Source: Periplaneta americana (lineage: Eukaryota; Arthropoda; Insecta; Blattodea; Blattidae). Taken from it: DNA of 64,000 nucleotides. Positions within the stretch are counted from its first letter, which is position 1, and each line of letters starts with the position of its first letter. The stretch covers positions 62,001 to 126,000 of the forward strand of contig NW_027185525.1 of NCBI RefSeq assembly GCF_040183065.1, given 5' to 3'. The notes under the pieces are model-generated. The model ran no database searches, had not been told where the DNA came from, and saw nothing but the letters and a program-made list of their open reading frames with translations. Positions 1,502 through 26,872 of the stretch are shown piece by piece. The translations under genes and the position numbers were made by a program.

Positions 1502-2959
1502 GTGCTAAAACACTTAGTCATATTTTTTACCACTGTATTGTTATTAACTACTGCTGCTTGCAACAAACAACAAGATACTCCATCTCAACCAGTATTGGGG
1601 AATTTAAGCGATCTACCTAAAGAACACAGAACTATGCTCAAGAAAATCTTTACCAAAGACCTCACAGAACAACTACAACAATATGCACAAAATAACCCCA
1701 AACCACACGTCTTGTGGAATGGAGCTTTTGATTTTTATGATATCTTCTCCAGTATCGACTCCGAACAAATGGGACGACAAGCATCCATCTCTTACGATGT
1801 CCAAAATGTTTGGAAACTCGAGCTATTAGAAAAAAACATCAACACTTACGACAAACTCTTCGGTCTAAATACAACTCAAGTTCAAAACCTCATGACCTTT
1901 TTAGGGGCTACCAATGCTCCTTTTGCTCTCCAATTTATTCAATATATGGAAACTAAAAACCTCATCGATCAAGACTCTCTTATCCATTTTTTTGCCGAAC
2001 CTTTAGCTATTGACGAGCAAACTTTCCAGAATATCAAACAGATTCTTCTTTACAAACGACACTTTAATCTTGATAAAAACGATCTCGTCAGAACTTTTGC
2101 CAATACCAATGACTCCCGATTTGTTGTAGAACTACTCAAAATCTCTCTCAAACAAGGATACCTCAACACCCAAGACCTCATCTCTACCACTTTTAACTCT
2201 GAACCTGCTAGTTTTAGCGATATGATTTATAACAGAAGATGGCATTCCTTCCCTGATGGAGATGCTTTTGAAAACGATGTCTATGGAAATTTCAACTTCC
2301 ATATCCCCACTCAACTCACTCTCAAACATATTTTTGCCGCTATGCCTTTAGTTATTCAATATCTTAATTCTTTCTCTGAAGATATTTTCTATGACGAATA
2401 TGGAAACCCTTATTACTTCTATGCCTTTCTTATGTCTGGAGATCGTTATTCTCAACCTAAGTATGAAAAAGAATACAAAGAATTAGGTTATCATAATCAC
2501 TCTGATGCCTTAATTCCATTTTATAAAAAACAGGTGTTAGACTGGAAATATCTCAACAAAGAACAAGAAAATATCCTCTTGTTCAGTATACGAAACGGAA
2601 ATATTGATAAACCTTCCGCCCAGTTCTTGTTGGACCAAGATGTCCCCATAGAACAAACTAACCAACAAGGGCAAAATATTTTGCAATATTGTATCCTCTA
2701 TAATGGAGCTCAAAATGAGCCAGATAGAGTTAAAGAACATTTTGAATGGACATTGAAATTTTATCAAGAACATAAAGAATATTTTGATGCCCCCCCCAGT
2801 ATTGGAGTTGAAGCCGCTCCAGCGTGTCGGAATATACAGGTATTTAACCTTTTTGCAAAAGAGGATAAAGATTTACTCACCAGTAAAGACAAACAGGGGA
2901 AAGATCTTCAATCTTTGGTTACTCCAGAGTTTTGGCAATATATCCAACAAGAATTTTAA
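1502..2959 (+). CDS. Large lipoprotein with ankyrin-like C-terminal part; putative immunity protein
   Basis: The 485-residue product starts at a GTG preceded by GGGAGGGG. A lipoprotein signal peptide ends T-A-A-C with the lipidated Cys at residue 20. The mature part is not like the other array lipoproteins; around residues 365-420 it shows ankyrin-like helices (a G-N-x-D...LL turn and an N-x-x-G-Q-N-I-L-x-Y pattern). It converges with the orphan CTD at 3012-3338, separated by a bidirectional hairpin, so by position it is the cognate partner of that CTD. Immunity is inferred from position and from the shared promoter-leader; the protein alone would read as an ankyrin lipoprotein of unknown role. 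Confidence 0.7.
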   Translation: MLKHLVIFFTTVLLLTTAACNKQQDTPSQPVLGNLSDLPKEHRTMLKKIFTKDLTEQLQQYAQNNPKPHVLWNGAFDFYDIFSSIDSEQMGRQASISYDVQNVWKLELLEKNINTYDKLFGLNTTQVQNLMTFLGATNAPFALQFIQYMETKNLIDQDSLIHFFAEPLAIDEQTFQNIKQILLYKRHFNLDKNDLVRTFANTNDSRFVVELLKISLKQGYLNTQDLISTTFNSEPASFSDMIYNRRWHSFPDGDAFENDVYGNFNFHIPTQLTLKHIFAAMPLVIQYLNSFSEDIFYDEYGNPYYFYAFLMSGDRYSQPKYEKEYKELGYHNHSDALIPFYKKQVLDWKYLNKEQENILLFSIRNGNIDKPSAQFLLDQDVPIEQTNQQGQNILQYCILYNGAQNEPDRVKEHFEWTLKFYQEHKEYFDAPPSIGVEAAPACRNIQVFNLFAKEDKDLLTSKDKQGKDLQSLVTPEFWQYIQQEF

Positions 2960-2965
2960 TCATTT

Positions 2966-2994
2966 CTCACCCCTCTTTTATTATGAGAGGTGAG
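2966..2994. terminator. Bidirectional hairpin between convergent genes
   Basis: CTCACCCCTC (2966-2975) and GAGAGGTGAG (2985-2994) form a 10-pair stem with one mismatch and a 9-base loop. T-rich tracts flank both sides, so it can end the lipoprotein transcript and the opposing CTD transcript. Confidence 0.7.
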
Positions 2995-3011
2995 AACTTT
3001 GACTCCTTTTT

Positions 3012-3338
3012 TTATATTTTTACTTTACAGTGAATATGACTGTCTTCATAAATTGCCTGTTCTACATTTTGGAATCCTCCACTATGGATTAGGTGTTTGG
3101 CTATCTTCTCTATAGCCGATTTAGGGGTATTCACTCCCTCTTGCTTGTAAGTGTAACTGTAATCCACCAGCTCAAAATCTAAGCCTAAAAACTTACTCTC
3201 TTCCCCCTTGTATATATGATCAAAAGGGACCGTATCCGTCCACTTGGCAAAATTGTAAAATCGACTACTCACTTTTTTCTTCACCTCCGATCTCTTCAGA
3301 AATTCTAGTCCCTCTATATATTCTTTACTTAAACTCAC
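3012..3338 (-). CDS. Orphan C-terminal LAS-type peptidase domain (D-type), no N-terminal domain
   Basis: The 108 residues match the last part of the effector at 21478-23178: the F-D-H-I-Y...F-L-G-L-D-F block holding a predicted metal-binding His and Asp, and a final H-I-H-C (H-x-H). The open frame continues upstream to about 3390 as the K-F-F-T-D-L-A-D segment, then meets the promoter of the next lipoprotein gene. It has no convincing start or ribosome site, so it is probably a silent cassette. The last 30 residues differ from the other D-type copies, matching a different partner lipoprotein (1502-2959). It lacks the S-x-x-F-R...Q part of the catalytic domain, so it is likely inactive alone. 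Confidence 0.65.
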   Translation of the reverse strand: MSLSKEYIEGLEFLKRSEVKKKVSSRFYNFAKWTDTVPFDHIYKGEESKFLGLDFELVDYSYTYKQEGVNTPKSAIEKIAKHLIHSGGFQNVEQAIYEDSHIHCKVKI

Positions 3339-3387
3339 TCCATCTAAAATATTATCCGCTAAATCCGTGAAAAACTTTTCATCATAC

Positions 3388-3442: not shown

Positions 3443-4324
3443 ATGACTAAACACTTCACCTTATTTTTTACCACTGTATTATTATTCAGTACTGTTGCTT
3501 GCAACAAACAACAAGATACTCAAACTCAACCTACTAAAACACAAATACCAGACTTTAAAGTTACTGTGGAAGAATTTATGCCTCCTAGTATCCCTAATAA
3601 AAGGATTGATTGCCCCCATAATATTAACACACAAACAGACTACTGTATACTAACAGAACAAGAAAGATCTCATATGAACGAAGAGTATAATGCTGCTTAC
3701 GACTTCCGCGCATATATGGAAATGAGCAATACTCCTAATGGTAAACTAAAAGCACTAGAATATTTACAAAACAATACCTTTGCGCAAACACTCAAACGCT
3801 CTTACCAAATAGCTAATAATGAAGAACAGTTTTTCCATACTTACCAAGCCTTAATTGATATTTTTAAAAATAAAGGTATAGACTGGTTATTAAAAGTCGG
3901 AAAATTACTAGAACAACCTTTTGACCCTCATACCCAAAACCTTGTAGTAGGAAGTGTAGAAGACCCCTTTTTTTTTAAACCAGAAACTCTCCCTCAGACT
4001 GTAGAAATGTGCCCCAATATTAAAGAAGATTTTTCTAATATAAAATCTTCTCAAGTCCTCTTTTTAACCCAGAGTAACTTTTACTTTTTTAGTTATCCTG
4101 AGGAAGGTGAGGGAGATATTCTTATTAAATCAGAAGGGACAAACGGCTTTTTACCAAACTTTAGGGCTAGTATATTTATCAATGGAGATTCAGATTCTAT
4201 CTGGATTAATTTTTATTACACCGCTATAAATAGACCTAATCAGAAAAATCCAATCCCCTCTGTAAAGGATATTGACGGCGACACTTGTCGCCATCTCAAT
4301 ATCCTTAATCAAATTACTGTTTAG
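3443..4324 (+). CDS. Putative immunity lipoprotein, M15-cognate family
   Basis: 293 residues. Signal peptide with a basic start, hydrophobic core and S-T-V-A-C lipobox (Cys 20) directs it to the periplasmic side as a lipoprotein. The mature chain has further cysteines at D-C-P-H, D-Y-C-I-L, E-M-C-P and D-T-C-R, probably disulfide-bonded. Its last 11 bases overlap the end of the convergent M15-type effector at 4314-5930. Near-identical genes at 12297 and 15085 also converge on M15-type CTDs, which is the reason to call it their inhibitor. It differs from those copies only in short patches (residues about 43-55 and 154-211) that track differences in the partner CTD. No database family is recognised. 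Confidence 0.75.
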   Translation: MTKHFTLFFTTVLLFSTVACNKQQDTQTQPTKTQIPDFKVTVEEFMPPSIPNKRIDCPHNINTQTDYCILTEQERSHMNEEYNAAYDFRAYMEMSNTPNGKLKALEYLQNNTFAQTLKRSYQIANNEEQFFHTYQALIDIFKNKGIDWLLKVGKLLEQPFDPHTQNLVVGSVEDPFFFKPETLPQTVEMCPNIKEDFSNIKSSQVLFLTQSNFYFFSYPEEGEGDILIKSEGTNGFLPNFRASIFINGDSDSIWINFYYTAINRPNQKNPIPSVKDIDGDTCRHLNILNQITV

Positions 4325-5930
4325 TACTTCTTTGTTTGTCTAATAGCTCCAGTAACTTAGGTTGATATTTTTTCAGCAATGCCGCTAGTTCCTTTTGTTT
4401 CTCTCGGGTTAAATTTCGCTCATTCTCAGGTTTAGCATGATCTGCTGCTCCATACACAATCCATACTTGTGAACCTCTAACAGGTATAATAAGACGTCTT
4501 TCATTCTGAATATCCTTGAGCAGAGCTGTAATCTCTGAATTATATTGTTTTTCTACTCGAGTTCCATTAGGATAAAATTCAATGTGCATGGGATCTCCAT
4601 CTAACCTGTCTAGGATCTGATCCTTTCCTTTTACAAACTCCTTCATTTTAGCGCGCACTTTATCCGCATAATCTATATCTGAACCTTTATCTTTTCTTAA
4701 AGGAACAATATCTATGGCATTACCCACCAAATGATTTCCTGTTTCTAAGGCATTACTTGACATAAAAATTGCTTCCACATTATCCTTATCTAGGGTATAG
4801 TCTGGACCTGTTAAATACAAAGCTAACTGGCTAATTGTGTGTTCTTTGTCCGCCAAATATCTCAACCCTCCAGTATTAGGCACTATACTAAAAGGATAAT
4901 CGTTCTTCAAAGCTTCTCGGGTTTTTCTTACCAATTCTCTAAACTCCGGTGATAACTGGCTTATCATTGCCTCATCTGTTTTGTATGCTGGTATCACTTT
5001 TGGATTACTACTCTCTTGGACTTTTGTCTGTTCCTGAACCTTCTTATGCTCTTCCTTGGCTCGAGGGGCAAAATAACTCCCCAATACATTCGGAATCACC
5101 TCCTTATGTACCTGCACATGCGTCTTCACTTCCTCATGACCTATATGACGCAGCCGATCCATGATCAACTTCACTCCGCCTTCCGTTAAACTTGAAAATA
5201 TCTCCCAATAACTCTTGTGTTCCACCTTCTTCTCTCGGTACCATTCCTTCAAGACCTCCAAAAGCGTCTTCTCCTTCATATTATTACAAGATTTGCTCTG
5301 GTATCTCTCCCAACCATCCCTCTGGAGCTCTGACAAACATACCCGTGCAGATTCCTCAAACTCCTTCTTACTACTCTCCTTTCTCCCTCTCAAGTAACTC
5401 TCTATTCTACCAGGATCTAACTGTAGATACTCCAATGTCTCATGGTAACTCTTGTGGTCCCAGTACACCTCCTTGACCACTCCAGCTTTCTTGAGTTCTT
5501 CCACACTTCTTTTCAAGCTAGATAAATCCTTACAACTCCTCTCGCTGATTTCCAGTAGGTACAATGAACTGGACCCCACCTTCGGGAAACATGACTTGTA
5601 GTCCTTCATAATCCTCACCACTTGCGTCACCCATTCCTGCGACAGACGACTTCCACTCTCTAGGGGCTTACCTCCGTTCTTCTCTTCCCTCTCTCTCAGT
5701 TCCTTCCAGACCTTCTCCATTCCTGTTGTCATCCGGTACGTCTCTTTGAGCTTTTGTGCGCTCTTGTACACATTCAGCATATCCTTGGCTTGTTTCTCCG
5801 CTTCCAATACTCGCGTGTACTTCAACTCCAAGTCGCTTTTACTTTCCTGGCACAGTTGTTCCACCAATGTCTGCACTTCGCGGCTCAGGTCTAAGCTGCC
5901 GCTTCTTTTTACTATTCGGTATTCACTCAT
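4314..5930 (-). CDS. Polymorphic effector A: shared N-terminal domain plus M15 (D,D-peptidase-like) C-terminal domain
   Basis: 538 residues, starting at an ATG seven bases after AAAGGAGGT. Residues 1-300 are a charged, helical domain shared with the effectors ending at 9325, 15956 and 21478; it has no signal peptide or membrane span. After a short linker, residues 340-455 look like peptidase family M15: an N-T-G-G-L-R turn, H400-L-V-G-N-A-I-D407, and M-H449-I-E. In that family His/Asp/His bind zinc and the Glu is catalytic, cleaving D-Ala-containing peptidoglycan peptides. The gene converges with its lipoprotein partner with an 11-base overlap. Predicted wall-degrading effector; activity, target and export route are inferred. 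The NTD is visibly GC-richer than the lipoprotein genes. Confidence 0.75.
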   Translation of the reverse strand: MSEYRIVKRSGSLDLSREVQTLVEQLCQESKSDLELKYTRVLEAEKQAKDMLNVYKSAQKLKETYRMTTGMEKVWKELREREEKNGGKPLESGSRLSQEWVTQVVRIMKDYKSCFPKVGSSSLYLLEISERSCKDLSSLKRSVEELKKAGVVKEVYWDHKSYHETLEYLQLDPGRIESYLRGRKESSKKEFEESARVCLSELQRDGWERYQSKSCNNMKEKTLLEVLKEWYREKKVEHKSYWEIFSSLTEGGVKLIMDRLRHIGHEEVKTHVQVHKEVIPNVLGSYFAPRAKEEHKKVQEQTKVQESSNPKVIPAYKTDEAMISQLSPEFRELVRKTREALKNDYPFSIVPNTGGLRYLADKEHTISQLALYLTGPDYTLDKDNVEAIFMSSNALETGNHLVGNAIDIVPLRKDKGSDIDYADKVRAKMKEFVKGKDQILDRLDGDPMHIEFYPNGTRVEKQYNSEITALLKDIQNERRLIIPVRGSQVWIVYGAADHAKPENERNLTREKQKELAALLKKYQPKLLELLDKQRSTKQ

Positions 5931-6255: not shown

Positions 6256-6792
6256 ATGACTAAACACTTCACCTTATTTTTTACTGCTGTATTACTACTG
6301 GCTTTTGCTAGTTGTGCTAAACCCAAAGAATATATTTGTAAAGTAAGTAATGATGCTGGTTCTCTTGAGGGATGTGATGAAAATATACCTATCAATGGCT
6401 ATGACTTTTTTCTTGTCTATTCTCTCCAACTTTTAGATCGTAGTTATTCTCTAATACAAGATAAACTAGATACCAAAAATATTAGACTTACTCCCCAAAT
6501 ACCAGGTTCTACCTGTACTCTCAAAGAAGTTCATAATACTTTTCTCTTAGAAGATCCTGCTTTCCCTAAAACGTACATTTATTATTTCTGTGCAGAGGAT
6601 TTTCAAACTCTTTCAAAATACGCTTTTACCAATAAAAATAGTATCTTTGGTGAAAATAATATTCGAACTACTATTGTGGACTTCCCTAAAAAATTAAATA
6701 AGGGGTTTTCTCAAATAATAAATGAGAAAACCCCTAAAAAATACCTAATTCTTGATAATATTGTTCGGATTTCTTTTGATAAAAAAGAATAA
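6256..6792 (+). CDS. Putative immunity lipoprotein, LAS-I-cognate family
   Basis: 178 residues with a lipoprotein signal ending F-A-S-C. The mature part carries the array's four-cysteine pattern: Y-I-C-K, E-G-C-D, S-T-C-T-L and Y-Y-F-C-A-E-D-F. It ends 10 bases before the stop of the convergent orphan CTD 6803-7192. Three other copies (8778, 17906, 19881) all face the same CTD type, so I infer a specific periplasmic inhibitor of that peptidase domain. The coding sequence contains a perfect 13-bp inverted repeat (6701-6735) that looks like the terminator of the opposing gene. No named family recognised. Confidence 0.75.
   Translation: MTKHFTLFFTAVLLLAFASCAKPKEYICKVSNDAGSLEGCDENIPINGYDFFLVYSLQLLDRSYSLIQDKLDTKNIRLTPQIPGSTCTLKEVHNTFLLEDPAFPKTYIYYFCAEDFQTLSKYAFTNKNSIFGENNIRTTIVDFPKKLNKGFSQIINEKTPKKYLILDNIVRISFDKKE
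6701..6735 (-). terminator. Hairpin inside the lipoprotein gene, probable terminator of the opposing CTD gene
   Basis: AGGGGTTTTCTCA and its exact complement are separated by 9 bases. Read on the minus strand the stem is followed by a T-rich tract (TATTTAATTTTTT), the classic intrinsic terminator layout. It lies inside the coding sequence of the convergent partner. Confidence 0.65.
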
Positions 6793-6802: not shown

Positions 6803-7192
6803 TTATTCTTTAGTGTACATATGTAGATGGTAGTTATCTTCTACTCCATGTGGGTTAATATGCAACTGAAATTGACATGCTGCTGCTATCATTTTTGCCT
6901 TCAAATCATCAAACTTCCCAGCTTTACCTATAGCCTTTAATTGTTCTTTTAGATCATCTATACTCACATCGAGTGCTTTGCCATATACATGTTTAAATGC
7001 TCGTTGTATAACTAAGTCATCTGGACTATAAATACCATCTATTTCTTCTTTCATCTTTTGGGCTAAAATGCTAATACTCCCTTTCGGGTCTCTGGCTATC
7101 TCTTTTTCATACTTATACATCACATTTGCTAATTTCTCATACCCATAAAGGTAGATCAATGACTCTCTAAACAATTTCTTCTCCGCTCTCAT
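6803..7192 (-). CDS. Orphan LAS-I peptidase C-terminal fragment
   Basis: 129 residues from an internal Met are almost identical to the C-terminus of the effector at 9325-10872. They contain H-V-Y-G-K-A-L-D (H-x-x-G-x-A-x-D) and the final H-L-H. Upstream the frame runs only through G-I-E-E and a scrap of the NTD end (F-A-P-R-A-K-E), then hits a stop. The S-x-x-R...Q element of the catalytic domain is missing, as is any good ribosome site. It therefore looks like a silent donor cassette kept with its immunity gene. A Cys replaces the usual Gly in the A-A-A-x-Q-F stretch near the end. Confidence 0.65.
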   Translation of the reverse strand: MRAEKKLFRESLIYLYGYEKLANVMYKYEKEIARDPKGSISILAQKMKEEIDGIYSPDDLVIQRAFKHVYGKALDVSIDDLKEQLKAIGKAGKFDDLKAKMIAAACQFQLHINPHGVEDNYHLHMYTKE

Positions 7193-7306: not shown

Positions 7307-7876
7307 ATGTTAAAGCACTTAACCATGTTTTTTACTGCTGTATTGTTATTAAGTACTATTGCTTGCAACACCAGTAAAACAAAAGACTACCCACTCGGAT
7401 TTGCTCCCTGTAAATGGGAGGAAGCTAAATTTGGGGCTCACTTAGTTTGCCCTGAAAGCATGAAACCTTCGGTAGAAAAATCTCATGAGCACGATAGCTA
7501 TTTTATCTATTTATTAACAAACGATAATATCGAATTTTGGTCTATGCCTAGTGTAAAACAAAGACAATGTACTCTTCATCGTGTAGAAAATAGTATCCCT
7601 ATTATTGATGCTTATCCTGATATTAGAGATTATGCATGGCAGGAAAGTCATAATTATTATTTTTGTACAGAAGATTTAGATACCATCTTACCCATAGTTT
7701 TAAAAACAAAACCAGAAAATAAACAAAATGCTTTCTTTGCATTCTCTGCTCTCCAATTCCCAAAAAAAATTACACAATCTTTTTCACAAACCATCTCTAA
7801 AGACGATTCTTCCTATTATGTCGAAATTCCTGATAATCTCGGATTTATGACCATTCATTTTTCTGATAAAAAATAA
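7307..7876 (+). CDS. Putative immunity lipoprotein, LAS-II-cognate
   Basis: 189 residues with a lipoprotein signal ending S-T-I-A-C. The mature chain keeps the four-cysteine scaffold of the small array lipoproteins (A-P-C-K, L-V-C-P, R-Q-C-T-L-H, Y-Y-F-C-T-E-D) and the C-terminal S-F-S-Q-x-I-S element, but otherwise differs from them. It converges on the only LAS-II CTD in the window (7910-8629), 33 bases away across a hairpin. Being the sole member of its kind next to the sole member of that CTD kind supports the cognate-pair reading. Confidence 0.72.
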   Translation: MLKHLTMFFTAVLLLSTIACNTSKTKDYPLGFAPCKWEEAKFGAHLVCPESMKPSVEKSHEHDSYFIYLLTNDNIEFWSMPSVKQRQCTLHRVENSIPIIDAYPDIRDYAWQESHNYYFCTEDLDTILPIVLKTKPENKQNAFFAFSALQFPKKITQSFSQTISKDDSSYYVEIPDNLGFMTIHFSDKK

Positions 7877-7909: not shown

Positions 7910-8629
7910 TTACTTAACATAAGTAAAATGAAAATGGTGACCAGACCCTAAATGATCTTTACCTTTCAATTTACACTCCGGTGCATATTCTGTTATTTTA
8001 GCTATCAATACATTTAAATCTGCATCTACATTCTTAGAATAGCGACTCACTTGACTTCTCAGTGTATTGATTCCTAAATCAAACGCATTATTGTAGCAAT
8101 GTTTAAACGCATCCTTCAATGCCTCATGATGCAAATGGTCTGGAATCCCTATAAATGGATACACCTTATTTATCTCCTCTTTCATTTCTCGTACTAACTT
8201 CTCTATACTCATTTCCAAATTAGCTACCACTAACTTGTCGTACTTCACCATAATAGATACTAAATTCCCATAAGCATAGTCATGTACTAGAGAATTGATA
8301 TCTTTTCTAAACTCCTCTATATCTTGACTCTCAGTCAACAAAGACCACTCTTTTCTCTTCTCAGGAGACCAATATTTTGTATTCTTTCTTCTATCTCGTA
8401 TCATTAAATCAAACTGATGGTCAAAATCTCTATATACAGAGGATATTTCAAAGGTAAGTTCCTTGAAAATCGTTGTATCTCTTACTTTTTGCAATAGCTT
8501 TTTGAGTCTTTCATAAAACTCTGGGTTTTTACTTTTATCTGGTAATGTAATTCCTGATTGAGGTTTTAAGTCACTATCACTTACTGCTTTACCTGCTCCC
8601 TTTTCCAGTATCCCTTGACTATTTACCAC
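7910..8629 (-). CDS. Orphan LAS-II peptidase C-terminal domain
   Basis: 239 residues from a GTG; the frame extends upstream to about 8695 through the Q-E-Q linker and the F-A-P-R-A-K-E-E-H-K-K end of the NTD. Unlike the LAS-I orphans it keeps the whole catalytic domain: S-S-V-Y-R-D-F-D-H-Q, the S-x-Y-R-x(4)-Q motif of M15/LAS peptidases; H-C-Y-N-N-A-F-D (Asn in place of Gly); and final H-H-F-H-F. It has the same layout as the LAS-I domain at 9325. No ribosome site or NTD, so it is probably silent, but it is the most complete orphan and could be made active by recombination onto an NTD. Confidence 0.68.
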   Translation of the reverse strand: MVNSQGILEKGAGKAVSDSDLKPQSGITLPDKSKNPEFYERLKKLLQKVRDTTIFKELTFEISSVYRDFDHQFDLMIRDRRKNTKYWSPEKRKEWSLLTESQDIEEFRKDINSLVHDYAYGNLVSIMVKYDKLVVANLEMSIEKLVREMKEEINKVYPFIGIPDHLHHEALKDAFKHCYNNAFDLGINTLRSQVSRYSKNVDADLNVLIAKITEYAPECKLKGKDHLGSGHHFHFTYVK

Positions 8630-8777: not shown

Positions 8778-9314
8778 ATGTTAAAGCACTTAACCATGTT
8801 TTTTACTGCTGTATTACTACTGGCTTTTGCCAGTTGTGCTAAACCCAAAGAATATACTTGTAAGGTTAGTGATGATACAGGTGCTCTTGAAGAATGCGAT
8901 AAAGATATGCATTTTGAAAAAAAATCCACATATCTTGTCTATTCCCTCCAACTTTTAGATCGTAGTTATTCTCTAATACAAGATAAACTAGATACCAAAA
9001 ATATTAGACTCACTCCCCAAATACCAGGTGCCACTTGTACACTTAAAGAAGTTCATAATACCTCTCTTCTAGAAGATCCCTCTGTACCTAAAACATATAT
9101 TTATTATTTCTGTGCAGAGGATTTTCAAACTCTTTCAAAATACGCTTTTACCAATAAAAATAGTATCTTTACCGAAAACGGTATTACCACTACTATTGTA
9201 GACTTCCCTACAAAATTAAATAAGGGGTTTTCTCAAATAATAAATGAGAAAACCCCTAAAAAATACCTAATTCTCTATAGTATTACCCTAACTGTGTTTC
9301 ATAAAAAAGAATAA
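8778..9314 (+). CDS. Putative immunity lipoprotein, LAS-I-cognate family
   Basis: 178 residues, lipobox F-A-S-C, with the four-cysteine scaffold (Y-T-C-K, E-E-C-D, A-T-C-T-L, Y-Y-F-C). It faces the full-length LAS-I effector (9325-10872) with 10 bases between stops and contains the 13-bp inverted repeat at 9223-9257. It is nearly identical to the lipoprotein at 17906 and less so to 6256 and 19881, mainly in the first 50 mature residues. That region is the best candidate for specificity. It would protect the producing cell's wall from its own effector if the model is right. Confidence 0.75.
   Translation: MLKHLTMFFTAVLLLAFASCAKPKEYTCKVSDDTGALEECDKDMHFEKKSTYLVYSLQLLDRSYSLIQDKLDTKNIRLTPQIPGATCTLKEVHNTSLLEDPSVPKTYIYYFCAEDFQTLSKYAFTNKNSIFTENGITTTIVDFPTKLNKGFSQIINEKTPKKYLILYSITLTVFHKKE
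9223..9257 (-). terminator. Hairpin inside the lipoprotein gene, probable terminator of effector B
   Basis: Perfect 13-bp inverted repeat AGGGGTTTTCTCA with its complement, followed on the minus strand by a T-rich stretch. Same position as in the copies at 6701 and 20329. Confidence 0.65.
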
Positions 9315-12029: not shown

Positions 12030-12086
12030 GCATAAAAATGTTAAATATTACAAAATTCGGCAAGTTTTCTTAGAGAAACACTCCCC

Positions 12087-14786: not shown

Positions 14787-14806
14787 AAGGGGCTGAAATT
14801 TTTTAT
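14775..14806 (+). terminator. Terminator overlapping the stop codon of 13821-14786
   Basis: CCCCTTTTATAAAAGGGG (14775-14792) is a perfect palindrome that includes the TAA stop, followed by CTGAAATTTTTTATT. Confidence 0.7.
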
Positions 14807-18909: not shown

Positions 18910-19416
18910 ATGACTAAACACTTCACCTTATTTTTTACCGCTGTATTGTTATTCAGTACCGCAGCTTGCAACAAACAAGCAGACGTTAAAGCTCCTGTTT
19001 GTGAGATACTACCCGATGTGGGGGGGGTGTACTGCCCTAAAGAAGATATTAAAAAATTGCCCAAATATATTTTCTTAGCTGTAATGTCACCAACATTGGC
19101 TCCAATGTTGCAGGAATATGGAACTTGTACGCTCCACATTGTTCATACACAAAAGACATTTAAAATGCCATATAAAGAAGAACAACCTAGCCAATATTAT
19201 ATTTGTAGAGAATTTTTAGAGAGTATCGTTAAAGATTCTTCGGTCACCCAGATCCCACAAGGGCAAGAAGATAACTATATTAAACTCCCTTTAACCCTAA
19301 ACGACTCTTACGAACAAACCATTACCGACAACACTCCTGTAAAATATATTCCAACTGATTCCATATCAGGATATTTTGTTACTACCCCAGACCAAATGCC
19401 CATATGGCCTTACTAA
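18910..19416 (+). CDS. Putative immunity lipoprotein, D-type-cognate family
   Basis: 168 residues; signal ends S-T-A-A-C. Mature cysteines occur at P-V-C-E, V-Y-C-P, G-T-C-T-L-H and Y-Y-I-C-R-E, the same scaffold as the other small lipoproteins. It is convergent with the orphan D-type CTD 19453-19770 across a strong hairpin. The other member of the family (20935) faces the D-type effector itself. The two differ in a block at about residues 33-65 and near the C-terminus, while their middles are base-identical. Confidence 0.75.
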   Translation: MTKHFTLFFTAVLLFSTAACNKQADVKAPVCEILPDVGGVYCPKEDIKKLPKYIFLAVMSPTLAPMLQEYGTCTLHIVHTQKTFKMPYKEEQPSQYYICREFLESIVKDSSVTQIPQGQEDNYIKLPLTLNDSYEQTITDNTPVKYIPTDSISGYFVTTPDQMPIWPY

Positions 19417-19452: not shown

Positions 19453-19770
19453 TTATAAGATAAGCTGACAATGAAGATGTCCTTCTTCATAGATGGTTTT
19501 TCCTATATGAAACCCTCCTTCATTTTTTAAACGCTTCGCTATCTTCTCTATAGCCGATTTAGGGGTATTCACTCCCTCTTGCTTGTAGGTATAACTGTAA
19601 TCCACCAGTTCAAAATCTAAGCCTAAAAACTTACTCTCTTCCCCCTTGTATATATGATCAAAAGGGACCGTATCCGTCCACTTGGCAAAATTGTAAAATC
19701 GACTACTCAATTTTTTCTTTCTCACCTCTTCCTTCGACACCTCTAGTTCCTCTATAAGGTCCTTACTCAC
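19453..19770 (-). CDS. Orphan D-type peptidase C-terminal fragment
   Basis: 105 residues from a GTG that is an ordinary Val codon in the full-length effector; the frame is open upstream to about 19830. It holds F-D-H-I-Y...F-L-G-L-D-F and the final H-L-H-C. Around the predicted metal-binding His it reads T-V-P-F-D-H-I-Y-K-G-E-E-S-K, as in the orphan at 3012, but unlike effector D (T-R-N-F-D-H-I-Y-K-E-G-K-S-D). No ribosome site; probably silent. Confidence 0.65.
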   Translation of the reverse strand: MSKDLIEELEVSKEEVRKKKLSSRFYNFAKWTDTVPFDHIYKGEESKFLGLDFELVDYSYTYKQEGVNTPKSAIEKIAKRLKNEGGFHIGKTIYEEGHLHCQLIL

Positions 19771-19880: not shown

Positions 19881-20417
19881 ATGACTAAACACTTCACCTT
19901 ATTTTTTACCACTGTATTACTACTGGCTTTTGCTAGTTGTGCTAAACCCAAAGAATATACTTGTAAAGTTAGTCTTACAAGTATTTCACTTGAACAATGT
20001 GATAAAGATATGCCACTTGATACAAGAGATGATCTGGTTCTTTTGTACTCTCTCGAGTATTTAGATCATAGTGATTTCTTAATACAAAATAATTTAGATA
20101 CCAAAAATATTAAACTCACTCCTGAAAAACCAGGTGCTACCTGCACTCTTAAAGAAGTTCATAATACTTCTTTGCTAGAAGCCCCTTATGTTCCTAAAAC
20201 TTACATCTATTATTTTTGTGAAGAAGACTTTCAAACTCTCCTTAAGTATGCCTTTACTGATAAAAATAATATCTTTACCGAAAACGGTATTACCACTACT
20301 ATTGTAGACTTCCCTAAAAAATTAAATAAGGGGTTTTCTCAAATAATAAATGAGAAAACCCCTAAAAAATACCTGACTCTCGATAATATTATTGTAACAT
20401 ATCTCTTCAAAAAATAA
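19881..20417 (+). CDS. Putative immunity lipoprotein, LAS-I-cognate, divergent variant
   Basis: 178 residues, lipobox F-A-S-C, four-cysteine scaffold present (Y-T-C-K, E-Q-C-D, A-T-C-T-L, Y-Y-F-C-E-E-D-F). It departs from the other three LAS-I lipoproteins in the first half (L-T-S-I-S-L, D-T-R-D-D-L-V, L-E-Y-L-D-H-S-D). Its neighbour CTD 20430-20819 is also the divergent one of its set, which supports co-evolution of the pair. It contains the hairpin at 20329-20363. Confidence 0.75.
   Translation: MTKHFTLFFTTVLLLAFASCAKPKEYTCKVSLTSISLEQCDKDMPLDTRDDLVLLYSLEYLDHSDFLIQNNLDTKNIKLTPEKPGATCTLKEVHNTSLLEAPYVPKTYIYYFCEEDFQTLLKYAFTDKNNIFTENGITTTIVDFPKKLNKGFSQIINEKTPKKYLTLDNIIVTYLFKK
20329..20363 (-). 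terminator. Hairpin inside the lipoprotein gene, probable terminator of the opposing CTD
   Basis: Perfect 13-bp inverted repeat, third copy of the element seen at 6701 and 9223, with the same T-rich tract on the minus strand. Confidence 0.6.
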
Positions 20418-20429: not shown

Positions 20430-20819
20430 TTATTCTTTAGTGTACATATGTAAATGGTAGTTATCTTCCACTCCATGTGGGTTAATATGCAACTGAAATT
20501 GACCTGCTGCCGCTATCATTTTTGCCTTCAAATCATCAAACTTCCCAGCTTTACCTATAGCCACCAATTGCTTTTCTAAATTTTTAATACTTACATCAAG
20601 TGCTTTACCATACACATGTTTAAATGCTCGTTGTATAACTAAGTCATCTGGTCCATAAATACTATCTATGTCTTTTTTCATCTTTTGGGCTAAAATACTA
20701 ATACTCCCTTTCGGGTCTTTGGCTATCTCTTTTTCATACTTATACATCACATTTGCTAATTTCTCATACCCATAAAGGTAGATCAATGACTCACTAAACA
20801 ATTTCTTCTCCGCCCTCAT
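20430..20819 (-). CDS. Orphan LAS-I peptidase C-terminal fragment, divergent variant
   Basis: 129 residues with H-V-Y-G-K-A-L-D and the final H-L-H. Compared with the other LAS-I copies it has K-K-D-I-D-S-I-Y-G for E-E-I-D-G-I-Y-S and I-K-N-L-E-K-Q-L-V for I-D-D-L-K-E-Q-L-K, flanking the metal-binding motif. The upstream junction is the same truncated A-K-E joint and common spacer. No start signal; silent cassette inferred. Confidence 0.65.
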   Translation of the reverse strand: MRAEKKLFSESLIYLYGYEKLANVMYKYEKEIAKDPKGSISILAQKMKKDIDSIYGPDDLVIQRAFKHVYGKALDVSIKNLEKQLVAIGKAGKFDDLKAKMIAAAGQFQLHINPHGVEDNYHLHMYTKE

Positions 20820-20934: not shown

Positions 20935-21441
20935 ATGACTAAACACTTAGCCATATTTTTTACTGCTGTATTGTTATTAACTACCGCTGCTTGCAACAAA
21001 CAAGCAGACGTTAAAGCTCCTGTTTGTGAGATATTATCAGAAGTAGCTTGGATATATTGTTCTAGAGGCGATATTGAAAAATTACCAAAGGGTATTTTTT
21101 TGGCTATGATGTCAGAAACACTGGCACCTGGGATGCTAGGGTATGGAACTTGTACGCTCCACATTGTTCATACACAAAAGACATTTAAAATGCCATATAA
21201 AGAAGAACAACCGAGCCAATATTACATCTGTAGAGAATTTTTAGAGAGTATCGTTAAAGATTCTTCGGTCACCCAGATCCCACAAGGGCAAGAAGATAAC
21301 TATATTAAACTCCCTTTAACCCTAAACGACTCTTACGAACAAACCATTACTGACAACACTCCGGTAAAATACATTCCAAATGATTCTATAATATTCTATC
21401 TTGTTACTACTCCAGATCAAATGCCTGAATCACCTTACTAA
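20935..21441 (+). CDS. Putative immunity lipoprotein, D-type-cognate family
   Basis: 168 residues; lipobox T-T-A-A-C and the four-cysteine scaffold (P-V-C-E, I-Y-C-S, G-T-C-T-L-H, Y-Y-I-C-R-E). It pairs with the full-length effector D across the hairpin at 21443. Compared with 18910 it is divergent over about residues 36-65 (W-I-Y-C-S-R-G-D region) and at the end, with an identical core between them: a mosaic. Confidence 0.75.
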   Translation: MTKHLAIFFTAVLLLTTAACNKQADVKAPVCEILSEVAWIYCSRGDIEKLPKGIFLAMMSETLAPGMLGYGTCTLHIVHTQKTFKMPYKEEQPSQYYICREFLESIVKDSSVTQIPQGQEDNYIKLPLTLNDSYEQTITDNTPVKYIPNDSIIFYLVTTPDQMPESPY

Positions 21442-21477: not shown

Positions 21478-23178
21478 TTATAGGATAAGCTGACAATGAA
21501 GATGTCCTTCTTCATAGATAGTTTTTCCTATATGAAACCCTCCTTCATTTTTTAAACGCTTCGCTATCTTCTCTATAGCCGCTCTAGGAGTATTCACTCC
21601 CTCTTGCTTGTAAGTGTAACTGTAATCCACCAGTTCAAAATCTAAGCCTAAAAAATCACTTTTGCCTTCTTTATATATATGATCAAAATTTCTTGTATCC
21701 GTCCACTTGGCAAAATTGTAAAATCGACTACTCACTTTTTTCTTTCTCACCTCTTCCTTCGACACCTCTAGTTCCTCTATAAGTTCCTTACTCACCGTCT
21801 TCCCATCTAAAATGTAGTCCGCTAAATCCGTGAAAAACTTCTCCACCTGAAAACGCTCTTGAGTTGTCGCCTGTTCATTTCTAACTTTTGGTACCAATCT
21901 AAGAACTTCTGGTATGGTTAAACTAGAAACTGAGGAAAGACCAAAATCCCGATCAAAAGACTGAAGCATAGATAGTAGCGTTGAATCTACGTAAATCGTA
22001 ATGTAGTTCCTGACCCCTATTTTGTACTTGTATCTTGTATCCGTGTAGTTTTTACTAGGGTTCATGGCACCTATCATAAAGAACGCTTGTTTTAAATTAC
22101 TTCTCATCACATCATTCAGCTGCACCTCTGACCTAAAGGTACTCGATACCCAGTTGAGAATTGGATCTATTTTGTTTTGGAACTTACGGTATACCTTCAT
22201 ATCCTCTGAATTAAGCGGATCTCTGTTGATCTTGGGTTCATATTTACTCATGCCCACGCTGGATGTAACTTTTGTCTGTTCTTGGACCTTCTTATGCTCT
22301 TCCTTAGCCCGAGGGGCAAAATAACTCCCCAATACATTCGGAATCACTTCCTTGTGACTCTGCACATAACACTTGACATCCTCTGGTCCTGTTAATCGGA
22401 GCTTCTCCAATAACGGGTTCACTCCACCTTCCGTTAAACTTGAAAATATCTCCCAATAACTCTTGTGTTCCACCTTCTTCTCTCGGTACCATTCCTTCAA
22501 GACCTCCAAAAGCGTCTTCTCCTTCATATTATTACAAGATTTGCTCTGGTATCTCTCCCAACCATCCCTCTGGAGCTCTGCCAAACACACCCGTGCGGAT
22601 TCCTCAAACTCCTTCTTACTACTCTCCTTTCTCCCTCTCAAGTAACTCTCTATTCTACCCGGGTCTAACTGCAGATACTCCAATGTCTCATGGTAGCTCT
22701 TGTGGTCCCAGTACACTTCCTTGACCACTCCAGCTTTCTTGAGTTCTTCCACACTTCTTTTCAAGCTAGATAAATCCTTACAACTCCTCTCGCTGATCTC
22801 CAGTAGGTACAATGAACTAGATCCCACCTTCGGGAAACATGACTTGTAGTCCTTCATAATCCTCACCACTTGCGTCACCCATTCCTGCGACAGACGACTC
22901 CCACTCTCCAAGGGCTTACCTCCGTTCTTCTCTTCCCTCTCTCTCAGTTCCTTCCAGACCTTCTCCATCCCTGTTGTCATCCGGTACGTCTCCTTGAGCT
23001 TTTGTGCACTCTTGTACACACTCAACATGTCCTTGGCTTGTTTCTCCGCTTCCAACACTCGCGTGTACTTCACCTCCAAGTCGCTTTTACTCTCTAGACA
23101 CAGTTGTTCCACCAATGTCTGCACTTCGCGGCTCAGGTCCAAGCTGCCGCTTCTTTTTACTATTCGGTATTCGCTCAT
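21478..23178 (-). CDS. Polymorphic effector D: shared N-terminal domain plus LAS-like peptidase domain with long insert
   Basis: 566 residues from the ATG at 23178 behind AAAGGAGGT. The NTD is a mosaic: its region around residues 225-250 follows effector A, the next 50 follow effectors B and C. The CTD has S-S-T-F-R-S-E-V-Q (an S-x-x-x-R-x(3)-Q form of the M15/LAS motif), then about 150 residues of insert, then F-D-H-I-Y...G-L-D-F and the terminal H559-L-H561-C. The H...D spacing is longer than the usual H-x(6)-D, so the catalytic assignment is weaker than for A-C. Convergent partner 20935-21441. Confidence 0.7.
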   Translation of the reverse strand: MSEYRIVKRSGSLDLSREVQTLVEQLCLESKSDLEVKYTRVLEAEKQAKDMLSVYKSAQKLKETYRMTTGMEKVWKELREREEKNGGKPLESGSRLSQEWVTQVVRIMKDYKSCFPKVGSSSLYLLEISERSCKDLSSLKRSVEELKKAGVVKEVYWDHKSYHETLEYLQLDPGRIESYLRGRKESSKKEFEESARVCLAELQRDGWERYQSKSCNNMKEKTLLEVLKEWYREKKVEHKSYWEIFSSLTEGGVNPLLEKLRLTGPEDVKCYVQSHKEVIPNVLGSYFAPRAKEEHKKVQEQTKVTSSVGMSKYEPKINRDPLNSEDMKVYRKFQNKIDPILNWVSSTFRSEVQLNDVMRSNLKQAFFMIGAMNPSKNYTDTRYKYKIGVRNYITIYVDSTLLSMLQSFDRDFGLSSVSSLTIPEVLRLVPKVRNEQATTQERFQVEKFFTDLADYILDGKTVSKELIEELEVSKEEVRKKKVSSRFYNFAKWTDTRNFDHIYKEGKSDFLGLDFELVDYSYTYKQEGVNTPRAAIEKIAKRLKNEGGFHIGKTIYEEGHLHCQLIL

Positions 23179-23511: not shown

Positions 23512-24684
23512 ATGACTAAACACTTGACTTTACTATTGGCTGCCGCACTATTATTCGCTTTTACCGCCTGTAGCAAAAATAACCAAAGTGCTGATCCACT
23601 CGCTGACCTTGCAAATATCCCTTCTCCTGTCTGCCAGTACTCTCCTGAAGAAGGATTACTGGTATGCCCACAAAAAGACTTTGATAATATTACAAAATCT
23701 CTTAACAAGCCTAATCCATTTGGCAGAACTACCGCTCCTATAATCTATAGATTAGGATTAGGAGTAGGTGCAGACAATAATGATCTACAACATAGGTACA
23801 GCATTTATTTCCTGCATCCGTTTGACCAACCTTATACTTGTACTTTGCACCTTATTAATAATAAATATGGAGTTTTTGACAAAGGAACTGAAGATGAAAG
23901 AACTAGCTACTACATTTGTAGAGAAGACTTTGACAAAATATTAGAAAATACAGATAATTTTGATCCTGAAGAAGACCCAGCAGAATATTCTGATAATATA
24001 ACATTTCCTACAGAGCTCAGTTCAGGGTTCTACCAAAACATTGCTGACGAAACACCGCAAAAACATTTTCCTAATGTTTACTTAGCCAACCAAGGGATTG
24101 CCACAGAAAAAACCAAAATTAAACCAGTTGACCCATGGGCTGACCTAACCAATATACCCTCTCCTGTCTGTCAATACTCTCCTACAACAAAAGCATTAAT
24201 GTGCCCACAAAAAGACTTTGATAATATTACAAAAACCTTTAACAGATCTTTTAAAGCTGGTTCTCCCCCCATTATTAATATTGTAGGTACATTAAGAAAA
24301 GAAGGAAAAGCCCGATACCTCTATGAATTTAATCAACCTTATATCTGCACTTTACACTTGATTGGAAATCGTTATGGGCTCACTGGGTTTGCAGGAAAAG
24401 AAAAAACAGAATATTATATTTGCAGAGAAGATTTTGACAGAATATTAAAAGATGGTACCTTTATATTAGAAAAAGATAACCCAGAGTTAGAAACTATTAA
24501 TCGCTTTTTACAAAAAGTGAAAATAAAAGGCTGGGATGACAAAAAATATGGATATTATGATAGGGATTATATGGAATTCCCTACTGAACTCAGTTCGGGG
24601 TTTTATCAGCCGATTACCGATAAAACCCCTAAACGATATGTTAATGCTAGAAATGTAGGATTTAAACAAATTATGCCAAACTAA
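23512..24684 (+). CDS. Tandem-duplicated putative immunity lipoprotein, E-type family
   Basis: 390 residues; signal peptide ends F-T-A-C. The mature chain is two copies of one domain (about 22-195 and 200-390). Each has an N-I-P-S-P-V-C-Q-Y-S-P opening, a C-P-Q-K-D-F-D-N-I segment, a C-T-L-H-L-I strand, Y-Y-I-C-R-E-D-F-D and the S-S-G-F-Y-Q...T-P closing motif. The second copy is not lipidated itself. A single-domain relative is the next gene (24949). It overlaps by 14 bases the orphan E-type CTD at 24671. A 11-bp inverted repeat lies at 24597-24629. Two domains could bind two effector variants; this is inference. Confidence 0.75.
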   Translation: MTKHLTLLLAAALLFAFTACSKNNQSADPLADLANIPSPVCQYSPEEGLLVCPQKDFDNITKSLNKPNPFGRTTAPIIYRLGLGVGADNNDLQHRYSIYFLHPFDQPYTCTLHLINNKYGVFDKGTEDERTSYYICREDFDKILENTDNFDPEEDPAEYSDNITFPTELSSGFYQNIADETPQKHFPNVYLANQGIATEKTKIKPVDPWADLTNIPSPVCQYSPTTKALMCPQKDFDNITKTFNRSFKAGSPPIINIVGTLRKEGKARYLYEFNQPYICTLHLIGNRYGLTGFAGKEKTEYYICREDFDRILKDGTFILEKDNPELETINRFLQKVKIKGWDDKKYGYYDRDYMEFPTELSSGFYQPITDKTPKRYVNARNVGFKQIMPN

Positions 24685-24895
24685 AATGAAAATGTTGATT
24701 ATCATCATCTCCATGAAAATAACATTTTAATCCTTGTCTGGTTTGATCGTTCACATAATCTCTCATTGCGTTGGCTTTGTTTGCTCCGTGATCTGCTACC
24801 ATCCTATTATAACTCACATCAAATGCACTCCCTCTCATATGCGGAAAGACTTTCTCTTGGTCACTTTGGTCAAAATGACTTAATTTATTTTTTTT
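24671..24895 (-). pseudogene. Orphan E-type LAS peptidase fragment
   Basis: On the minus strand the frame ends ...N-Q-H-F-H-F-S-L-A at 24671 and runs back through H-M-R-G-S-A-F-D (H-x-x-G-x-A-x-D) and a Q-E-K-V-F-P segment. All of these align with the end of the effector at 25514-26872. The NTD and the front of the catalytic domain are missing. It overlaps the convergent lipoprotein's end by 14 bases, as the intact pair does at 25514-25527. Confidence 0.7.
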
Positions 24896-24922
24896 GACTT
24901 ACCACCCTTAACATATTACATT
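24894..24922 (+). promoter_or_regulatory. Array-type promoter of lipoprotein gene at 24949
   Basis: TTGACT (24894-24899), 17-base spacer, TACATT (24917-24922), then AGAGGGAC before the ATG. Confidence 0.75.
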
Positions 24923-24948
24923 TGTATTAATATGAGAAGAGGGACTTT

Positions 24949-25527
24949 ATGCATAAATACTTGACTTTACTATTGGCTACCGCACTATTATTCGCTTTTA
25001 CCGCCTGTAGCAAAAATAACCAAAGTGATGATCCACTCGCAGACCTTGCCAACATCCCCTCTCCTGTCTGTCAGTACTCTCCTAAAGAAGATGCATTTCT
25101 ATGTCCAAAAAAAGACTATGACAACATTAAAAACACGTTAGCTTTTACATCGTATCAAGAGATAAGTATTAATATTGTAGCAACCGTACGAACAGTTTCA
25201 AAAAAAGATCCTTTTCTTCATCGTCTTGATTCCTCTTATATCTGTACTCTACACTTAATCAAAAGCCGGTATGGTTCTATTGGATATGCAGAAACAACAA
25301 AAAGGACAGATTACTATCTTTGTAGAGAAGATTTTAATACAATATTGAAAGAAGCCTATAATTTAGATTTTAAAAAAAATGAAATGTTTGATATTCTGAA
25401 TAGTGGTAATTGGACAGAATTACCTACCCAACTTAACTCTGGGTTTTATCAATCTATTACCGATAAAACCCCTGTACAATACCTAGATATTGCAGATATA
25501 CAATATAAAAAAATTACCGCAAACTAA
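24949..25527 (+). CDS. Putative immunity lipoprotein, E-type-cognate
   Basis: 192 residues; lipobox F-T-A-C. Single copy of the domain that is doubled in the preceding gene: S-P-V-C-Q-Y-S-P, F-L-C-P-K-K-D-Y, I-C-T-L-H-L-I, Y-Y-L-C-R-E-D-F, S-G-F-Y-Q-S-I-T-D-K-T-P. A 10-bp inverted repeat sits in the closing motif (25441-25471). Its 3' end overlaps effector E by 14 bases. Inferred inhibitor of effector E's peptidase domain. Confidence 0.75.
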   Translation: MHKYLTLLLATALLFAFTACSKNNQSDDPLADLANIPSPVCQYSPKEDAFLCPKKDYDNIKNTLAFTSYQEISINIVATVRTVSKKDPFLHRLDSSYICTLHLIKSRYGSIGYAETTKRTDYYLCREDFNTILKEAYNLDFKKNEMFDILNSGNWTELPTQLNSGFYQSITDKTPVQYLDIADIQYKKITAN

Positions 25528-26872
25528 AGTGAAAGTGTTCATTACCTAGTCCTCCGTGAAAATAACAGTGTAAATTATATCTATCAGCATCTGTAACGTA
25601 TTTTATTATTATATCCGTATTAGGTTTCCCACATATACTGATTAAATCAGTATAACTTAGGTCAAATGCGGAGCCTTGAATATGTTGAAAGACCTTTTCT
25701 TGAGTTGTCTGAGAAAATTGGCTTAATTCTTCTTCCATCTTTTTAGCTAGATTCTCTGAATCTGAAAGTTTGGTCTGTTTTGCTAATGTATTATACTTTT
25801 CAAGTACTTTTTTGAAATCTCCATCCGCATTAATATACTCTATATGAAAATCCTTGGCACCTTTAGATATTTTATTCTCAACCATTAATTTACATTGACC
25901 ATGTAAATCTCTTTGTCCTTCGCTCACCACAAATTTAATAGTGGGGTCATGGACTAAAAATCGTACATCTACTAAGAGTTTGGCTAACTTGTCCATTAAA
26001 CTAGAGTTAGGCAACTTTACCCCAGGTTTTGCCGTAATAGACCCACTGGTATTTTTGTAACGGGCTATTTCTTCTTGAGTAAAAGCATACATTTCATTGA
26101 TCATCGTTTTAGTTAGTAGCACTTTATGCATAGATAAATAACTTCTCAGTTCATCGGAAAGATAGAGTTGTTGAAGAATACTCTCTATTCTAGATTCTTT
26201 CCCGAGGTACTCATAAAACATCTGCCAGTAATTAAGTTTTTTATCTTGGCTTTCTTTATGGACTTTTTTTACAACCTCCAGTACAATTTTTTCACCAGAT
26301 TTATGGGCACTTTTTTCTACCGCTCGAGTTGGGTTTTCTTTAAGTGGAGTCATCATACTTTTACAAAACTGAGCGATACATTGTTTTTCTTCCCGTTCTA
26401 GTTTCTCAAAAAATCCTCGTATATTATCCCCTAAATGCACAATATGGTACTGTTTCCCCTCATCTTTACGATTGAGTAAATAATTGGTAACCGCTCTTTC
26501 TGATTTGAGTTTGTCCAATGTAGACTTGAGCTTATCTGCACTATTACAGCTGGACACCTCTACCTCCAAATATTCTCCAGAGCATACTTTACTAAAATGT
26601 CCTGGATTTCTTTCCATTAAACTCCGAGCTTCACTAATCCATCCATTGATGTCTTGATGATTTTTTTCTCGTTTTTCCAACGCTGCAAAAATCTCTCGAG
26701 TAACACTATCTTCAGCATAATGTCGTCTCATTTCTGCCGATGTTTTGTAACGACTCAGCATATCTTTTGCCTGTTGATCGGCACTAATCCCTCGCTTCAC
26801 AAGATATCTTAAATTAGGGCTACCGCTTTGGGTACATAAATATTTTATGAGTTGGTTTACTGTTTCACTCAT
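25514..26872 (-). CDS. Polymorphic effector E: divergent N-terminal domain plus LAS peptidase domain
   Basis: 452 residues from an ATG preceded by AGGAGA. The NTD is a distant relative of the A-D domain: A-D-Q-Q-A-K-D-M-L-x-x-Y-K aligns with A-E-K-Q-A-K-D-M-L, a similar E-K-R-E-K-N block follows, and the later Y-W-Q-M-F element corresponds to Y-W-E-I-F. The CTD carries V-S-E-G-Q-R-D-L-H-G-Q, H397-I-Q-G-S-A-F-D404 and H446-F-H448. It shows that the architecture persists when the NTD has diverged strongly. It has no signal peptide. Partner lipoprotein 24949-25527. Confidence 0.72.
   Translation of the reverse strand: MSETVNQLIKYLCTQSGSPNLRYLVKRGISADQQAKDMLSRYKTSAEMRRHYAEDSVTREIFAALEKREKNHQDINGWISEARSLMERNPGHFSKVCSGEYLEVEVSSCNSADKLKSTLDKLKSERAVTNYLLNRKDEGKQYHIVHLGDNIRGFFEKLEREEKQCIAQFCKSMMTPLKENPTRAVEKSAHKSGEKIVLEVVKKVHKESQDKKLNYWQMFYEYLGKESRIESILQQLYLSDELRSYLSMHKVLLTKTMINEMYAFTQEEIARYKNTSGSITAKPGVKLPNSSLMDKLAKLLVDVRFLVHDPTIKFVVSEGQRDLHGQCKLMVENKISKGAKDFHIEYINADGDFKKVLEKYNTLAKQTKLSDSENLAKKMEEELSQFSQTTQEKVFQHIQGSAFDLSYTDLISICGKPNTDIIIKYVTDADRYNLHCYFHGGLGNEHFHFSLR

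Follow-up and report, generated by a model that had tools for sequence, protein, structure and literature searches.

In the MafB/MafI systems of Neisseria, a constant front carries a variable toxic C-terminus that co-varies with its immunity partner, and many C-terminal cassettes with immunity genes lie downstream, some of the C-termini without a start codon (PMC4287609; here and below, statements are limited to the available excerpts of the cited papers). Rhs and contact-dependent inhibition (CDI) systems exchange tip and immunity gene through recombination in the constant region and also hold orphan immunity genes and stand-alone cassettes (PMC10539506, PMC3482391). Polymorphic toxin loci characteristically contain cut tips and orphan copies of immunity genes (PMC4287609, PMC10539506). 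We describe here an array that shares these traits. It occupies positions 1502-26872 of a 64,000-nucleotide window (the whole stretch analyzed, C44:62001-126000, where C44 is a contig of the Periplaneta americana assembly), and in it 14 plus-strand lipoprotein genes alternate with minus-strand genes for putative effectors or their C-terminal tips.

The opposite-strand arrangement has a precedent. The immunity genes of colicins B and M, cbi and cmi, are placed in this way and have their own promoter; the membrane-anchored Cmi works in the periplasm and depends on a disulfide (PMC8469651). A preliminary description of this DNA had called convergent immunity unusual; these genes show that it is not unique. 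Colicin M, too, attacks the wall pathway, but it does so by cleaving lipid II, and the excerpt describes no multi-unit array of tip/immunity cassettes (PMC8469651). MafI lies behind MafB on the same strand and is not termed a lipoprotein in the excerpt (PMC4287609), whereas the array partners lie on the opposite strand. Lipoprotein immunity is known from the X-Tfi protein XAC2610 (PMC10933484) and from Imm65 (PMC3482391). The X-Tfe/X-Tfi pairs of Xanthomonas resemble the array in opposing a signal-less peptidoglycan hydrolase with a lipobox-bearing immunity protein; they differ in that X-Tfe are XVIPCD-tagged effectors of a type IV secretion system and that the enzyme is a GH19 lysozyme instead of an M15 peptidase (PMC10933484). 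The type VI secretion system (T6SS) effectors Tpe14AB (PMC6833914) and the WHIX proteins (PMC12135965) have the M15-type domain and the antibacterial role that we propose for the array.

Domain scans tied the array to none of these systems. No Pfam match links its front to the MafB front, and no T6SS-effector Pfam domain was found in the array effectors scanned. The fronts of Rhs and CDI proteins are built of YD repeats and FHA/haemagglutinin domains; no Rhs- or haemagglutinin-type Pfam match was found in four of the five full-length effectors (E1, E2, E4, and E5). Nor did the array give a ColM-type match in Pfam or NCBIfam, libraries that include a ColM model. We conclude that the array works like MafB/MafI, Rhs, and CDI but belongs to none of them by the features tested. 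As far as the literature searched shows, what appears to be new is the combination of three traits: two anchors enclosing a convergent cassette, a probably single enzyme class that faces a single family of four-cysteine antidotes, and a front for which no relatives were detected.

The five full-length effectors (E1 to E5, 452-565 amino acids) consist of a constant front of ~300 residues and a variable tip. Seven further minus-strand open reading frames (ORFs) are stand-alone tips. The order below was drawn from tblastn searches of the array genes against the window; A to D and B' denote the types of tips and lipoproteins.

1502..2959, plus: lipoprotein of 485 amino acids with a weak ankyrin-like region, shared leader and signal peptide, 2 Cys after the lipobox; probably not immunity
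3012..3338, minus: stand-alone type-C tip fragment (last ~120 residues) opposite the unrelated 1502; 75% to 19453, 71% to E4 445-563
3443..4324, plus: immunity lipoprotein type A, 4-Cys pattern; paired with tip A, overlap 11 bp
4314..5930, minus: E1, full-length effector, constant N-terminal domain and type-A (M15-like) tip (tblastn, motif, hhalign)
6256..6792, plus: immunity lipoprotein type B (tblastn, 4-Cys pattern)
6803..7192, minus: stand-alone type-B tip from E2 residue 379, lacking the Arg-strand part; 98% to E2 tip
7307..7876, plus: immunity lipoprotein type B'; 28% to 6256, 4-Cys pattern
7910..8629, minus: stand-alone type-B' tip, complete; effector-linker scar upstream at 8630-8695 (tblastn)
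8778..9314, plus: immunity lipoprotein type B (tblastn, 4-Cys pattern)
9325..10869, minus: E2, full-length effector, type-B tip; N terminus 98% to E3, tip different
11253..12029, plus: helix-turn-helix ORF within the array, outside any unit (HTH_36 E = 7.6e-5, just below cut-off)
12075..12231, minus: broken type-C tip remnant (two-frame matches, internal stop)
12297..13175, plus: immunity lipoprotein type A (tblastn, 4-Cys pattern)
13165..13734, minus: stand-alone type-A tip from E3 residue 347, motifs retained (tblastn)
13821..14786, plus: lipoprotein distantly like type A (~30%), without an intact tip (tblastn, 4-Cys pattern)
14759..14981, both strands: remnants of an immunity-A gene end (plus, 14759-14911) and a type-A tip (minus, 14907-14981) (tblastn)
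15085..15966, plus: immunity lipoprotein type A (tblastn, 4-Cys pattern)
15956..17569, minus: E3, full-length effector, type-A tip (AlphaFold2 N-terminal model, phrog_465 match)
17906..18394, plus: immunity lipoprotein type B, internally 16 codons shorter (tblastn)
18405..18794, minus: stand-alone type-B tip, truncated; 99% to E2 tip
18910..19416, plus: immunity lipoprotein type C (tblastn, 4-Cys pattern)
19453..19770, minus: stand-alone type-C tip fragment; 92% to E4 445-565
19881..20417, plus: immunity lipoprotein type B (tblastn, 4-Cys pattern)
20430..20819, minus: stand-alone type-B tip, truncated; 92% to E2 tip
20935..21441, plus: immunity lipoprotein type C; 84% to 18910
21478..23175, minus: E4, full-length effector, type-C tip; N terminus 94-95% to E2/E3, tip different
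23512..24684, plus: two-lobed immunity lipoprotein type D, 8 Cys (2 x 4); each lobe ~44% to 24949
24677..24892, minus: type-D tip fragment, 72 codons, open in frame; 49% to E5 380-451
24949..25527, plus: immunity lipoprotein type D (tblastn)
25514..26872, minus: E5, distant full-length effector (~25% to the other four), type-D tip (sequence comparison)

The preliminary description was correct about the array itself, and its count of five effectors with a shared front and variable tip is confirmed; it overrated how unusual the convergent layout is and how complete the stand-alone tips are. It had counted eight such tips. Seven are ORFs, most of them truncated, and the eighth is the 72-codon type-D fragment. 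Twelve intact pairs bear out the statement that nearly every lipoprotein faces a tip, but 13821 faces only a 25-codon scar, and 1502 is mismatched. An overlap of the facing 3' ends, also taken as general, is present in 4 of the 12 pairs (11, 11, 11, and 14 bp); the other 8 have gaps of 10-52 bp.

Evidence for the nature of the array lies in how fronts, tips, and lipoproteins are combined. The N termini of E1 to E4 are 90-98% identical at the protein level, and yet their tips are of types A, B, A, and C: three unrelated tip types on four near-identical fronts, each facing its own lipoprotein type. Type matches in 10 of the 12 intact pairs (A, three; B, four; C, two; D, one); 7307/7910 is the single B' pair, and 3012/1502 is the mismatch. 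In the five different-type pairings among E1 to E4, two constant blocks flank the variable part. The left anchor runs from the leader through the signal peptide to immunity codon 13-23, and E1 and E4 additionally share 38 bases immediately upstream of it. The right anchor comprises effector residues 1 to ~300 and ~100 bases upstream. Between the anchors, these five pairings have no common DNA (BLAST E <= 1e-4), while the same-type pair E1/E3 is continuous at the DNA level (93.9%, 2,666 columns). Hence, the exchanged unit is the mature immunity protein together with the tip.

E5 is only ~25% identical to the other effectors over the N-terminal domain; its similarity to E2 extends over the tip, and the lipoprotein that faces it belongs to the same family as types B and C. 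Because so distant an effector repeats the layout with a related lipoprotein, the layout is old. Whole units have also been co-duplicated (3370-7370 resembles 15012-18973 at 91%, and 17850-19818 resembles 19825-21843 at 86%). The pairs therefore cannot be counted as independent cases; the case stands on E5 and the two anchors. This co-duplication and the mismatched 1502/3012 pair weigh against the toxin/immunity reading. All 28 pairwise comparisons among tips A to C, the E1-E4 fronts, and immunity types A to C (B', D, and E5 not included) gave ratios of nonsynonymous to synonymous substitution (dN/dS) of 0.03-0.49, evidence of selection; for stand-alone tips, the low values may stem partly from recent origin.

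The array thus bears marks of the polymorphic toxin kind: it has a shared front with a variable C-terminus, a co-varying neighbor, and stand-alone cassettes. Judging from its sequence, we consider it probable, at about 0.75, that this is a real, lineage-restricted toxin/immunity family acting on the cell wall. The signal-less effector would use its front for delivery to competitors and its tip, an M15-like zinc peptidase, to cut peptidoglycan peptides. The lipoprotein, expressed from its own shared promoter, presumably held by two disulfides, and anchored outside the cytoplasm, would bind and block the matching tip. With tip and immunity gene convergent between two constant blocks, one recombination step could swap a matched pair. 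Units multiply by tandem duplication, and in many of them the front of the effector has been lost while an immunity gene and a tip scar stay behind as orphan immunity.

If so, the array is an addition to the polymorphic toxins: a family in which the searches found no homologue of the front or the tips, nor, in narrower searches, of the antidotes. The convergent layout would offer a possible advantage, in that cassette ends lie in conserved DNA and swaps stay matched. Because whole units, truncated ones, and scars occur next to one another, the birth and decay of units could be read from a single genome, and paired sets of wall peptidases and their disulfide-bonded inhibitors would help in tracing how inhibitor specificity evolves. 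More tentatively, and at less than even odds, the array could represent a new class of polymorphic toxins, known from one bacterial lineage, in which a convergent cassette is exchanged by a single double crossover and never leaves a toxin without its antidote, one M15-like enzyme class meets one four-cysteine lipoprotein fold, and the front is a new delivery module. With one enzyme class set against one antidote fold, the arms race would concern enzyme-inhibitor specificity and not the type of toxin. The two-anchor cassette and the four-cysteine rule are points beyond the preliminary description.

M15 enzymes act on peptidoglycan peptides, and the tips had been described as LAS/M15-like throughout. 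The M15 zinc motif, HxxxxxxD with a second His, is present in 9 of the 12 tip ORFs; the three type-C tips retain only HxH. Among the 166 ORFs on the 156-kb contig, the stricter pattern HxxxxAxD...Hx[HE] is confined to nine tips (A, B, B', and D), against a shuffled expectation of 0.245; HxxxxAxD alone is found in one further, non-tip ORF on C44 (expected, 2.2). We compared the tips by hhalign with eight M15C endolysins, one from C44 and seven from named phages. Tip A matched with P = 7.3e-5 and a probability of 62%, compared with P = 0.75 for the N-terminal domain and P = 0.18 for the immunity protein as controls. The alignment is in register at the conserved-Arg strand (FxI..xxR) and at HxxGxAxD, and the B and D tips carry the same strand pattern, FxI[ST]..xR. 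E3 residues 298-428 also match phrog_465, an endolysin family, in the same motif region (E = 0.0051).

Several results weigh against the M15 assignment. No family model scored above the cut-off for any scanned tip; Peptidase_M15_4 reached E = 0.29 on the E1 tip, below the cut-off, and the E3 tip had no M15 match. Unrelated Pfam families scored in much the same range as phrog_465 (HTH_56, 0.0047; DUF5081, 0.0058; Sulfotransfer_1, 0.012), as did unrelated PADLOC families in the same kind of scan (E 0.0049-0.0096), so the phrog_465 match counts only alongside the motif and hhalign. The B and D tips match M15C weakly, at the Arg strand (P = 0.047), and type-B tips have a weak hit (E = 0.031) to Tai4, a family of amidase immunity proteins. 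In type-C tips the spacing of the motif is not kept, and hhalign gives no M15C match (P = 0.23). Taking motif and hhalign results together, an M15 assignment is likely for tip A, probable for B, B', and D, and uncertain for C.

Perhaps the tips are instead lytic or wall-remodeling peptidases of the cell itself or of a resident phage, restrained by the lipoproteins and playing no part in competition between cells? Phage tail-fiber-like ORFs are present on the contig, and the weak type-A match is to the very family, phrog_465, of an endolysin encoded there. The likeness of tip A to M15C endolysins (T5-type, phrog_465) is remote, and the array tips differ from them in being fused to a 300-residue domain and in facing a lipoprotein. 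Against this explanation, it is hard to see why a single cell should keep a number of divergent enzymes, each with its inhibitor, behind the same constant front; orphan immunity genes and cut tips mark polymorphic toxin loci in the excerpts cited (PMC4287609, PMC10539506), and no holin- or spanin-like neighbor was noticed among the ORFs, although no search was aimed at holins or spanins. We regard this explanation as unlikely, while it is the best of the alternatives. The endolysin itself, of the phage M15C type, lies at C44:51265-51702 (phrog_465 E = 1.1e-35) with tail-fiber ORFs close by, and it is a possible source of tip A.

The stand-alone tips are for the most part incomplete. Three (6803, 18405, and 20430) begin at E2 residue 379, past the conserved Arg strand, and two (3012 and 19453) begin at E4 residue 445, with about half of the tip missing. 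One (13165) has all motifs, and one (7910) is complete, its linker scar FAPRAKEEHKK lying behind two stop codons. With five of seven truncated, they resemble orphan immunity genes with tip scars more than orphan toxins. The shared breakpoints and the duplications suggest that there were few deletion events, which were copied along with the units.

The lipoprotein genes are uniform at their start, as the preliminary description had it. All 14 place the lipobox Cys at position 20, which predicts a location outside the cytoplasm for the partner lipoproteins, and all 14 share a promoter-leader of ~60 bases, separate from the effectors. The alignable leader block comprises a ribosome-binding site, a -10-like region, and, as the -35-like element, TTGACTT; an extra type-C copy at C44:40239-40675 has it as well. 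This copy is 97-99% to 18910 over residues 1-143, read in two frames, and no effector tip match was found near it. Past the lipobox, 13 of the 14 lipoproteins have exactly four Cys per lobe (eight in the two-lobed 23512), spaced C-x10..12-C...C...C. Type A follows the same spacing, with no BLAST-detectable similarity to types B to D past about the first 60 residues. Two disulfides per immunity lobe would fit this pattern. The nine other C44 ORFs with a lipobox, found with a crude pattern, have 0-2 Cys after it.

The putative immunity partnership is supported insofar as lipoprotein type follows tip type; it does not extend to 1502, which is unrelated to the type-C partners, has two further Cys, and breaks the pairing. 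We conclude that 1502 is probably not an immunity gene. Its Ank_2 match (E = 0.0079) is below the cut-off, and it has a relative outside the array (C44:145762-147378, 24%). That an ankyrin-like lipoprotein carries the same leader is what one would expect if these were surface lipoproteins diversified by cassette exchange, for antigenic variation or host contact, with the minus-strand genes as passengers or processing peptidases. The common promoter and signal peptide, the tandem duplication, and the presumed host-associated setting agree with this. Such a view leaves aside that lipoprotein type follows tip type and that the effector-side exchange boundary lies at the tip, and the 4-Cys pattern is restricted to the array among the lipoprotein-like ORFs examined; we consider it improbable. 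Least probable is that the effectors target a eukaryotic host: the size of the assembly suggests that a eukaryote harbors the bacterium, but a toxin aimed at the host would not call for extracytoplasmic immunity lipoproteins that protect the producer, and M15 enzymes cut peptidoglycan peptides.

Returning to the toxin/immunity reading, the front is the presumed delivery domain. All five effectors lack a hydrophobic N terminus, and none shows an evident signal peptide or membrane-spanning stretch (maximum 19-residue hydropathy, 1.09). The AlphaFold2 model of E3 residues 1-300 has ten-residue mean confidence scores (pLDDT) of 72-93. We found no Pfam or NCBIfam trafficking or secretion domain in the scanned effectors. 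The reading has points against it here as well: neither an effector (the whole E3 model was searched) nor an immunity model gave a structural match, and no delivery machine was identified. TssB (PF05591) was not found in the same assembly, in which completeness of the bacterial genome is not established; the E. coli control was positive. Delivery by release on lysis, by a contractile particle, or by another secretion route is possible.

Are there relatives elsewhere? In a large protein set, E3 had none at E <= 0.01 among 7,998 candidates scored, and queries A1 and A3 had none at E <= 1 among 7,993 and 4,719, respectively. Genome contigs gave 27 pattern stretches for E3, and viral contigs gave 3, 129, 350, and 146 for E3, A2, A3, and A10, none related. 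Plasmids yielded no match for E1, 3443, or 24949, and phages yielded none for E1; immunity proteins were searched in plasmids, viral contigs, and the same assembly. Over that whole assembly, with the best candidates scored, E3 had 7 matches and immunity type C had 10, all on C44. A search of 46 genomes of one class gave none, which shows little without a positive control. The constant front is without a detected relative, and so are the tips. The proposal of a new family stands as far as these searches go, though its way of working is that of known polymorphic toxin systems. Query A3 gave six matches (19-21 bits, E 1.2e-4 to 8.2e-4) among 392 genomes from the phylum to which Spirochaetes bacterium COTS27 belongs. 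Each spans between 51 and 121 profile positions in a long frame, two of these frames contain stops, and we judged all six to be chance.

C44 is 156,031 bases long and belongs to a 3.23-Gb assembly of 91 contigs, from which we infer that it is bacterial DNA accompanying a genome of eukaryotic size. Another contig, C85 (1,057,713 bases), carries a bacterial 16S gene (C85:824204-825682). The tetranucleotide profiles of two 10-kb stretches of C85 correlate with C44 at means of 0.79 and 0.80, compared with a mean of 0.76 among 10-kb pieces of C44 and 0.16-0.34 against seven bacterial loci, which were shorter (3-5.5 kb); C44 and C85 therefore probably come from one organism. The best identity of the C85 16S gene among the 392 sampled Spirochaetota genomes is 76%, and the best 80 SufB relatives (64-70%) are spread over several phyla.

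Elsewhere in the window, positions 38974-42193 encode a ParA-type ATPase and a Rep3 replication initiator as well as a partition-like ORF, and the GC skew changes sign at about 40 kb. The contig in addition encodes pyruvate kinase and has ORFs that, by reading, resemble suf, sel, purA, and purB; it looks like a chromid-like replicon. Ankyrin-type or ankyrin-like lipoprotein ORFs are found at window positions 31649-32566 (Pfam) and 1502-2959 (weak) and, by reading, at window positions 55760-56431 and C44:145762-147378. Three tandem ORFs with similar lipoprotein-like starts lie near the contig end (C44:150279-152477). At C44:132799-138191, a 1,379-amino-acid Cas9-like ORF is followed by Cas1- and Cas2-like ORFs, all named by reading their translations.

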